64,000 bases of DNA from Acetobacterium sp. KB-1 (GTDB lineage: Bacteria > Bacillota > Clostridia > Eubacteriales > Eubacteriaceae). Positions 21,104 through 22,620 of the stretch are shown one piece after another. Where the stretch lies: the NCBI RefSeq assembly GCF_003260995.1, contig NZ_CP030040.1, positions 478,979-542,978 on the forward strand, written 5' to 3'. The stretch's first letter is position 1; each line of letters begins with the position of its first letter. A program made the position numbers and the translations under genes. A model generated the notes under the pieces. That model searched no databases. It had not been told where the DNA came from and worked only from the letters and a program-made list of their open reading frames with translations.

Positions 21104-21226
21104 GTGTTTAAGCCTTTCGTTTTTTGTCAAATAGTTATCCACTTCTATTTTATCTGATTTTTGTTAGAAATGCATTTATTTTCTTGGCTAGTTTTAATAT
21201 TAACATCAACAAGCAATTTATTTGCC

Positions 21227-21256
21227 TTGACTTGATTAAAAAGAATCATTTACAAT
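21227..21256 (+). promoter_or_regulatory. Sigma-A promoter upstream of rsgA leader
   Basis: TTGACT at 21227-21232 and TACAAT at 21251-21256 with an 18-base spacer. If this is the rsgA promoter, the leader is about 280 bases long and contains repeat copy 2, the upstream ORF and the switch helices. Confidence 0.6.
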
Positions 21257-21283
21257 AATAGTACAGGATATTAATAAACTATC

Positions 21284-21380
21284 ATACCGACCAATTGTTA
21301 ATCTGGTGTTCGCCACAAGATCGGACAGGCTACCGCCGCGTTCGCCTTAATGCGTACAACATGCGAACAATTATTGGTAT
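21284..21380. repeat. Family A hairpin element, copy 2 (97 bp)
   Basis: It begins ATACCGACCAATTGTTA and ends AACAATTATTGGTAT. The outermost base pair is A-T here instead of G-C in other copies, changed on both arms at once, so pairing is kept. It lies in the rsgA leader, downstream of the likely promoter. Confidence 0.85.
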
Positions 21381-21436
21381 TAGGATATGCTCTTTAATAG
21401 GCTGAAATTACGAATTTAAAGTAGAGTGGAGAATTT

Positions 21437-21496
21437 ATGAAAAATATTAGAAAAATGGATAGTGTCGTGACGCCGGAGGGCAAAGAACGATACTAA
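21437..21496 (+). CDS. 19-residue leader peptide upstream of rsgA
   Basis: A short ORF (MKNIRKMDSVVTPEGKERY, stop TAA at 21494) begins at ATG 21437 with GTGGAG about six bases upstream, 47 bases before the rsgA start codon. Its last third covers the 5' arm of a hairpin (GGAGGGC, 21475-21481) whose 3' arm GCCCTCC (21504-21510) can instead pair with the rsgA ribosome site. This arrangement is that of a regulatory leader peptide. Its expression is inferred from the ribosome site and position. Confidence 0.6.
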   Translation: MKNIRKMDSVVTPEGKERY

Positions 21497-21537
21497 GCCT
21501 TTAGCCCTCCAAACGGTCAAAATACTAAATTTGGAGG
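21475..21537 (+). promoter_or_regulatory. Switchable leader structure controlling rsgA ribosome site
   Basis: Helix 1: GGAGGGC (21475-21481) with GCCCTCC (21504-21510), extended by AAAG/CTTT. Helix 2: CCTCCAAA (21506-21513) with TTTGGAGG (21530-21537), which contains the rsgA Shine-Dalgarno sequence. The two share 21506-21510 and cannot form together. A ribosome at the end of the leader ORF would cover the 5' arm of helix 1 and favour helix 2. Confidence 0.65.
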
Positions 21538-21543
21538 AAAAAA

Positions 21544-22620
21544 ATGAATAAAATAGATTTAGAAAATTACGGATTGAATCAGCACCTTAAACAGGAAGCG
21601 AGTTTGTACAGTGACTTGTTCGTAGCCAGGGTGACGGAGCAACATCGGGAACTGTATAAGGTGATCACTGAAAACGGCGAATTGCTGGCTGAGGTGTCCG
21701 GGAAATTTGTGTTTAAGACTGAAGACAATACCAGCTTTCCAGTGGTTGGCGATTGGGTGATGATTGATCGGACCGAGGAAGGTTCGGGCAATGCGGTGAT
21801 CCATCAGGTATTAAGTCGCACCAGCTTGTTTGAACGAAAAGCGGCCGGAACGGGAAATGGAGTTCAGATTGTCGCTGCCAATTTTGATCTGGTTTTTATT
21901 TGCATGTCGTTAAACAATGATTTTAATCTGCGCCGGCTGGAACGCTATTTATCAATTGCCTGGAGTAGTCAGGCCAGGCCAGTGATTGTCCTGACGAAAG
22001 CGGACCTATGCGATGATTTACCGTCGCGTCTAGGTGAAATTTCTGCTGTCCGGGTAGGAACTGATGTGGTGGTTTGCTCCAGTGAGGGCAACCGTGGTTA
22101 TGACGAGATTGCAGCCTATCTGTCGGTGGGAAAAACGAGCGTCTTTCTGGGATCGTCCGGGGTGGGTAAATCCACCATTATCAATCATCTGATGGGGGCA
22201 GAAGTGCTCGAAACCAAAGGCCTGAGAAATGATGATCGGGGCAGGCACACCACCACCCATCGTCAACTTCTGCTATTGCCCGGCGGTGGCGTGGTCATAG
22301 ATACCCCAGGGATGCGGGAACTCCATCTCGAAAAGGCGAATCTTTCCAAGTCCTTTGAGGATATTGAGGCACTGGCCAAGCAATGCCGCTTTGGAGACTG
22401 TCGCCACAGCGGCGAACCGGGTTGTGCGGTCCGAGCTGCCATTGAATCGAAAAACCTCTCGGAAAAACGGTTTGAAAACTATCGCAAGTTGCAAAAAGAA
22501 ATGGACTACGAAGGACTCAATTCACGTCAGCTGGAAGCCGAAAAAATTAAAAAAATGTTTGGCAGTAAAGGCGAAATGAAACAGATCATGCGTCAGGCAA
22601 AAAATAAAAACAAACGCTAA
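21544..22620 (+). CDS. rsgA: Ribosome small-subunit-dependent GTPase RsgA
   Basis: RsgA is a circularly permuted GTPase that checks and matures the 30S subunit. The order of motifs is the permuted one: N-terminal OB fold, then LTKADLCDD (guanine recognition, about 150) before GSSGVGKSTIINHLMG (P-loop, near 199-214), RGRHTTTHRQL (switch I), DTPGMREL, and the C-terminal zinc knuckle CRFGDCRHSGEPGCAV with the KRFENYRKLQKE helix. The length of 358 is slightly above the usual 300-350. The ribosome site GGAGG (21533-21537) is six bases from the ATG and lies within a switchable leader fold. Confidence 0.96.
   Translation: MNKIDLENYGLNQHLKQEASLYSDLFVARVTEQHRELYKVITENGELLAEVSGKFVFKTEDNTSFPVVGDWVMIDRTEEGSGNAVIHQVLSRTSLFERKAAGTGNGVQIVAANFDLVFICMSLNNDFNLRRLERYLSIAWSSQARPVIVLTKADLCDDLPSRLGEISAVRVGTDVVVCSSEGNRGYDEIAAYLSVGKTSVFLGSSGVGKSTIINHLMGAEVLETKGLRNDDRGRHTTTHRQLLLLPGGGVVIDTPGMRELHLEKANLSKSFEDIEALAKQCRFGDCRHSGEPGCAVRAAIESKNLSEKRFENYRKLQKEMDYEGLNSRQLEAEKIKKMFGSKGEMKQIMRQAKNKNKR

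Follow-up and report, generated by a model that had tools for sequence, protein, structure and literature searches.

In the leaders of ermC, ermA and cat-86, a short ORF lies among alternating helices. The OFF fold sequesters the Shine-Dalgarno sequence (SD) of the gene, and a ribosome stalled in the 5' arm frees it. Leaders with chloramphenicol-type stalling carry KTD or KNAD. In SecM and MifM, long arrest peptides that sense protein export, the nascent-chain stall alters the exposure of a downstream ribosome site. In Bacillus subtilis vmlR, antibiotic-induced stalling on an upstream ORF (uORF) is reported to switch RNA folds ahead of a ribosome-protection gene, and transcription attenuation is combined with translation attenuation at a predicted three-codon uORF (PMC9226507).

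The window (the whole 64,000-nucleotide stretch of Acetobacterium sp. KB-1 DNA that was analyzed) has a leader of related layout in front of a gene for an RsgA paralogue. On comparative and modelled grounds it is read here as a probable erm-type translational attenuator that is switched ON by ribosomes stalling at a conserved codon triplet, with a probability of roughly 0.6. The ORF, the triplet, the helices and the gene association come from comparison, and the effect of ribosome position is modelled. A drug or stress would be what stalls ribosomes at the triplet. The features are the following.

21227 to 21256, forward strand: candidate sigma-A-type promoter, TTGACT, 18 nt, TACAAT (pattern scan)
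21428 to 21431, forward strand: SD of the leader ORF (sequence; GGAG invariant in an 11-sequence genus alignment)
21437 to 21496, forward strand: leader ORF MKNIRKMDSVVTPEGKERY, 19 codons, stop at 21494–21496 (peptide core conserved in 68 non-redundant leaders)
21458 to 21466, forward strand: codon triplet D-S-V, in general [E/D]-[I/S]-[V/A], the proposed stall site (conserved; at the modelled switch point)
21460 to 21468, forward strand: segment A, 5' arm of helix P1 in the OFF fold (folds; own-versus-swapped z 3.6 for P1)
21460 to 21465, forward strand: the part of segment A that is also the 5' arm of helix H0 in the ON fold (folds; own-versus-swapped z 4.3)
21475 to 21485, forward strand: segment B, 5' arm of helix 1 (H1), GGAGGGC (21475–21481) plus AAAG (21482–21485) (sequence, pair changes, folds)
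21487 to 21495, forward strand: segment C, 3' arm of P1 (folds, own-versus-swapped pairing)
21499 to 21510, forward strand: segment D, 3' arm of H1, CTTT (21499–21502), a bulged A and GCCCTCC (21504–21510) (sequence, pair changes, folds)
21506 to 21513, forward strand: 5' arm of helix H2, CCTCCAAA, the anti-Shine-Dalgarno (sequence, folds, pairing test)
21522 to 21527, forward strand: segment E, 3' arm of H0, within the H2 loop (constrained fold; z 4.3 over 68 leaders)
21530 to 21537, forward strand: segment F, the rsgA SD region TTTGGAGG, 3' arm of H2 (sequence, folds)
21544 to 22620, forward strand: gene for the RsgA paralogue, 358 aa, ATG at 21544, the putatively regulated gene (PF03193, TIGR00157)

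A sequence-only reading had proposed a short ORF with its own ribosome site before rsgA and two mutually exclusive helices, one of which hides the rsgA SD. Re-reading of the sequence showed its positions for the ORF, the helix arms and the SD region to be exact; the ORF is conserved, and the two exclusive helices were borne out by folds and by pairing tests on 68 leaders. The core of helix 1, GGAGGGC/GCCCTCC, had been drawn correctly. Its extent was understated, as AAAG and CTTT also pair across the bulged A. Two helices were absent from that reading, P1 (21460–21468 with 21487–21495) and H0 (21460–21465 with 21522–21527). In folds and constrained folds, P1 formed together with the SD helix H2, and H0 together with helix 1. 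The predicted ON fold consists of H0 and H1 and the predicted OFF fold of P1 and H2, four alternating helices in which the CCTCC of segment D of the window leader doubles as part of the 5' arm of H2.

Folded alone, the leader adopted the SD-hiding fold with an energy of −29.9 kcal/mol, which none of 200 shuffles equaled (z −3.2). Constrained folding with helix 1 forced gave −25.7 kcal/mol compared with −28.8 kcal/mol for the SD-hiding fold; H1 then had 11 pairs with one bulge and was enclosed by H0. The shuffles, the conservation within and outside the genus and the pair changes place the leader beyond chance.

In the proposed mechanism, when no ribosome is held on the ORF, or when it is read through to the stop, the OFF fold would be favored, with P1 between segments A and C and H2 between the CCTCC of D and the rsgA SD. 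A ribosome paused with the [E/D]-[I/S]-[V/A] codons at its center would cover A and leave the GGAGG of B free ahead of its leading edge. The freed B would pair with D (H1), exposing the rsgA ribosome site. A would hold the stall codons, with B and D acting as anti-sequestor and D and F as sequestor. Stalled ribosomes are predicted to turn on the RsgA paralogue here; at other loci the proteins turned on would be one with an RNHCP domain and a GNAT acetyltransferase.

Scanning the window's leader (21143–21560) detected no terminator-like sites, and control is therefore likely to be translational; transcription attenuation of the vmlR/bmrCD type was set aside for the same reason. The pattern scan gave 2 promoter matches, about the number expected from shuffled sequence (1.8), and a promoter pattern lies within 600 nt of rsgA at 11 of 13 genus loci. 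A dispersed repeat at 21300–21385, with 24 matches in the same genome including itself, separates promoter and leader ORF in the window; no inverted repeat of 10 or more was found within it. In genome G003 this repeat is absent and promoter and leader are close together. The G003 leader ORF is near the start of the predicted transcript because the promoter is directly upstream.

RsgA is a family of 30S GTPases, recognized by circularly permuted G motifs (TKxD, then GxxGxGKS, then DTPG) and a CxxxxCxHxxxxxC zinc site. Both marks are present in the 21544–22620 protein, as judged by eye on the translation and from invariant columns. It scored 169.7 bits with PF03193 (cut-off 30) and 159.7 bits with TIGR00157 (cut-off 100), and below the cut-offs of NF008931 and NF008932. 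The housekeeping rsgA (yjeQ/cpgA) of the same genome is at C1:254861, flanked by genes for a PASTA-type kinase and a thiamine-pyrophosphokinase-like protein (assigned by eye), and its product is 33% identical to the paralogue over residues 37–321. The role of the paralogue may differ from that of the 30S-dependent assembly GTPase.

Two covariance models were used to search for further leaders, R1 built from 19 leaders and R2 from 75. In its own genome, R2 matched the window copy only, with no match at the housekeeping rsgA. Within Acetobacterium, R2 found the leader in 17 of 19 genomes. All 13 close orthologues of the window RsgA in genus genomes (at least 76% identity) have it, and the two leaderless genomes are without such a paralogue (G007, 30% match only; G018, 81% complete, no match). 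The leader precedes an RNHCP gene in nine genus genomes, followed by an rsgA paralogue in eight (G002, G003, G004, G006, G008, G012, G014 and G015); G010 has leader and RNHCP, with no rsgA paralogue in the 1500 nt read downstream. At L014 (G012) and L015 (G008), an insertion of about 100–200 nt separates the CCTCC arm from the rsgA SD in an otherwise intact leader. The sequence-only reading had suggested examining related rsgA leaders for a conserved peptide and covarying helices; on alignment, the peptide core was conserved and both helices co-varied outside their invariant cores.

Outside the genus, the leader reappears in Clostridia, in Bacilli, in Negativicutes and in bins of Synergistaceae. 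Among 391 class genomes R1 matched in 25, and among 398 phylum genomes in 19 (own genome included in both). R2 matched in 23 of 40 relatives, in 10 of the 11 genomes from which named loci came, in 34 of 391 class genomes and in one of four genomes of another class. Applied to the best 80 of at least 564 RsgA-relative loci, R1 gave 32 matches at E ≤5. The leader was accepted in 29 of these best 80 loci, 28 of them R1 matches accepted by reading and one (L144) by eye; four accepted loci have E >0.1 or are odd (L123, L124, L126 and L130). RsgA relatives with no recognized leader are common, 51 of the best 80 of at least 564 loci not being accepted. Two further loci, L170 and L172, conform to a plain GGAGG-CCTCC-GGAGG pattern and were not accepted as leaders. 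The accepted loci include the Bacilli Peribacillus cavernae and Lactococcus formosensis, as well as Ectobacillus, Fontibacillus, Viridibacillus, Clostridium thermobutyricum, Sedimentibacter, Anaerovorax, Synergistaceae bins and Fusibacter, where the leader precedes RNHCP. Plasmids carry it before rsgA in Peptoclostridium acidaminophilum and before GNAT in Selenomonas ruminantium (Negativicutes). RsgA relatives occur on 184 plasmid records, all below 60% identity, RNHCP on 4 and GNAT on 53, four of the latter at 60–80% identity. In L127 (Fontibacillus panacisegetis) the motif of the leader peptide is doubled, SIVASIVADREG. L085 and L095 (G212) have lost the GGAGG arm and kept the motif and the SD helix, and are predicted to be stuck. 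No description of the leader was found in the portions of open-licence literature retrieved on RsgA with leader peptides or attenuators, on translational attenuation in Firmicutes and on Acetobacterium leader peptides.

R1 and R2 matched 89 distinct places, of which 88 were examined, a contig-end match in G269 being left out. Downstream of 85 of the 88, on the same strand, was one of three families: the RsgA paralogue (53), RNHCP (18; PF12647) or one GNAT family (14). The distance from match to gene was at most 60 nt in 77 of the 85; far targets were those of L079 (301 nt) and L211 (386 nt), the L211 match not being itself the leader. The R1 training set held 16 of the 53 RsgA leaders and none of the RNHCP or GNAT leaders, and 38 of the 40 R1 matches outside it precede the three families (RsgA 22, GNAT 9, RNHCP 7). 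The three exceptions among the 88 are L107 (G813; an rsgA remnant, by eye), L114 (G510; a solo leader copy with no gene) and L252, which is probably a false match. At L211 (G044), a divergent leader, MFNNYGKSELAVSLGVFK, was seen by eye directly before GNAT; it has a different helix 1 sequence in the same layout and was missed by the model. At L234 (G399) the leader is intact and the GNAT gene apparently broken, its match being in pieces.

The three families also meet one another. Leader loci have the order RNHCP then RsgA in nine cases and RsgA then GNAT in one, and a plasmid of Vibrio coralliilyticus has overlapping RNHCP and rsgA genes. RsgA–RNHCP fusions were found at L243 (454 aa frame, confirmed by Pfam) and L242 (521 aa frame, by eye). 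Roseburia sp. 831b has a GNAT–RsgA fusion (L254:2986–4566) annotated simply as rsgA, with no leader visible at that locus. RNHCP is sparse, occurring in 9 of 299 phylum genomes (8 above the cut-off) and not in the genome of the window, and no relevant paper on it was found among the open-licence papers searched. The GNAT family has only remote likeness to named acetyltransferases. The leader was present in one of 20 loci read for GNAT relatives (L258), and a GNAT locus 76% identical to the query was without it. PADLOC returned nothing for the RsgA paralogue, RNHCP and GNAT proteins. Fusions and operons tie the three families together, and they probably form a ribosome protection or repair set.

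The peptide and the helices were compared in a set of 78 leaders, reduced to 68 by an 85% identity filter; leaders found later were left out. Excluded were those of G008 and G012 (CCTCC–SD insertion; L115 is that of G012); L079, L107 and L114, whose gene is distant, a remnant or missing; L085 and L095, which have lost the arm; L111, whose excised stretch contains no SD; L130, for its odd spacing; and L118 and L123, as near-duplicates. Manual placement was used for ten start codons and one arm. Peptides in the 78 leaders are 11–23 residues long. In the long form, the 63 leaders before rsgA read through GGAGG, mostly with 18–19 codons. The short form, which stops just before GGAGG, is that of all eight GNAT leaders and three of seven RNHCP leaders (for example MKKNNTLDIVA and MKHQNKKEIVR). 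Both forms carry [E/D]-[I/S]-[V/A], the middle codon starting 13–15 nt before GGAGG.

Among the 68 leaders, E/D was found in 54, I/S/L in 64 and V/A in 63 at the respective positions, while residues at the neighboring codons vary widely (diversity 0.84 to 0.92). At the E/D codon, base diversity was 0.61 at the third base compared with 0.22 and 0.24 at bases 1 and 2; the third base of the Glu codon inside the GGAGG arm had a diversity of 0.04. Third-base variation was highest at the E/D and V/A codons and not at the I/S codon, which is mostly ATT. Serine at this middle codon is written AGT/AGC in six leaders and TCG/TCA in four. Since the triplet lies within the RNA arms pairing A with C and A with E, and the middle codon is mostly ATT, its conservation may partly serve pairing. 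Chloramphenicol-type stalling was considered and not adopted, as the residue before E/D is most often L, A, M, V or T and not only A/S/T; the drug is left unnamed.

The effect of ribosome position was modelled on the 68 leaders by forcing 30 nt unpaired, with the edge at P+15, and reading out the chance that the SD of the gene is open. With the ribosome at the E/D codon, modelled mean openness was 0.27; it fell to 0.05 when the ribosome moved to the second codon of the triplet and to 0.01 when it reached the third. The three codons preceding the triplet gave 0.22–0.23, and RNA without a ribosome 0.17 (median 0.03). A ribosome at the E/D codon was predicted to leave the SD more open than one at the last codon in 65 of 68 leaders, and more open than no ribosome in 46 of 68, with a rise from below 0.1 to at least 0.3 in 12. 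Divided by gene, openness changed between free RNA and the E/D codon from 0.19 to 0.22 for the 53 rsgA leaders, from 0.03 to 0.36 for RNHCP and from 0.13 to 0.56 for GNAT. The window's own leader gave 0.01 free, 0.06 at the D codon and a maximum of 0.29 two codons before it. Where the modelled drop fell depended on the edge assumed, ranging from the V/A codon for P+11 to the E/D codon for P+17 and staying within the triplet or at its 5' border. In this model the switch is clear relative to read-through but weak for rsgA leaders relative to naked RNA. Since the SD is almost as open with the ribosome upstream of the triplet as with it at the E/D codon, the model shows the point at which the switch closes and not where the ribosome stops.

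The folding model agrees with the direction given in the sequence-only reading, in which the rsgA site stays hidden when a ribosome reads the ORF to its end. That reading had gone on to propose feedback on ribosome assembly by active ribosomes. In such a scheme the leader would sense general translation activity, busy ribosomes keeping RsgA low and slow translation raising it, as a homeostatic 30S feedback. The direction fits the anatomy, since in the model the site is hidden beyond the triplet and about as open before it as at its first codon, and RsgA belongs to the 30S GTPase family. Nevertheless, the gene is a paralogue belonging to a three-family set, with the same leader before RNHCP and GNAT and none matched at the housekeeping rsgA, which weakens this scheme; it also leaves the conserved triplet with its fixed spacing unexplained, and we consider it unlikely. 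That a conserved triplet coincides with the switch point is suggestive of a specific stall, and not of a read-out of overall ribosome activity.

Pairing was tested on the 68 leaders by comparing own with swapped arms, shifts allowed. Arms were placed for the best helix 1 pairing, so that placement leans to helix 1. The z values were 8.8 for the H1 extension, 5.4 for the H2 extension, 4.3 for H0, 3.6 for P1 and −0.4 for the control. The first arm placement, differing in six leaders, gave 7.4, 5.7, 4.3 and 3.3 for H1, H2, H0 and P1 (control −0.3) and the same conclusions; a 65% identity filter (52 leaders) gave 7.8, 5.3, 3.6 and 2.8 (control −0.6). For the 15 non-rsgA leaders, z was 2.4 for H1 and 3.4 for H2 (control −1.5), and weak for H0 (1.4) and P1 (1.8). 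The GGAGG/CCTCC/SD cores are nearly invariant and therefore uninformative on covariation. The H1 pair just inside the core was present in 57 of 68 leaders (40.9 in shuffles) and that just outside in 44 (31.2 in shuffles), with none of 1000 shuffles as high in either case. In the 68 leaders, significance was reached neither by the next H1 pair toward the outside nor by the pairs two and three steps deeper inside. H2 showed no co-variation in the core and no enrichment of outward pairs in this set; its inward pairs were modestly enriched (0.004 to 0.023).

Four alternating, co-varying helices, with a possible pseudoknot in the P1 state, could also belong to an RNA switch that binds a ligand or protein (a riboswitch or RsgA autoregulation), the ORF being incidental. 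At gathering score, nevertheless, Rfam gave no family match in the window and no leader match in 15 leader-bearing loci, where the sole match was a tRNA. Three weak matches to eukaryotic or viral families at a loose threshold were all below gathering score and were rejected. The ORF is kept with its SD and stop across classes, even in the short form that ends before GGAGG, and free third bases in the E/D and V/A codons argue for a peptide; an RNA switch of this kind is improbable. Translational coupling or constitutive damping, in which ORF and helices merely fix a low RsgA level, would agree with an SD mostly closed in the modelled free RNA but would need H2 alone, and with two exclusive folds under selection it seems very improbable.

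As a stall-responsive attenuator, the leader would offer a concrete control switch for the RsgA paralogue. From its recurrence before RNHCP and GNAT, together with the fusions, RNHCP proteins are predicted to share a function directed at the ribosome. More tentatively, and with somewhat less than even confidence, an undescribed, widespread stall-sensing leader may govern the set of RsgA paralogue, RNHCP and GNAT joined by fusions and operons, which would protect or repair ribosomes when a particular inhibitor or stress halts them at [E/D]-[I/S]-[V/A]; this would be the first regulon and functional lead for RNHCP. Leaders of such type usually report the drug or stress of their gene, and so identifying the inducer of the [E/D]-[I/S]-[V/A] peptide would tell which threat the set guards against.

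With vmlR (PMC9226507) the leader shares a fold switch by stalling on a uORF, here proposed; unlike vmlR, which also uses transcription attenuation, the window's leader showed no terminator-like site. The housekeeping rsgA of the same genome encodes a member of the same GTPase family, but with 33% identity, in a kinase–rsgA cluster and with no leader match. Stall-dependent SD exposure, proposed here, resembles that of SecM and MifM, whose peptides are long, whereas those found here have 11–23 residues. With ermC, ermA and cat-86 the leader shares the short ORF, the alternating helices, the sequestered SD and, as proposed, its release by a stall. To our knowledge, the [E/D]-[I/S]-[V/A] peptide motif does not occur in those leaders. 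Unlike them, the present leader has as its targets an RsgA paralogue, RNHCP and GNAT, and is built on a near-invariant GGAGG/CCTCC/GGAGG triple.
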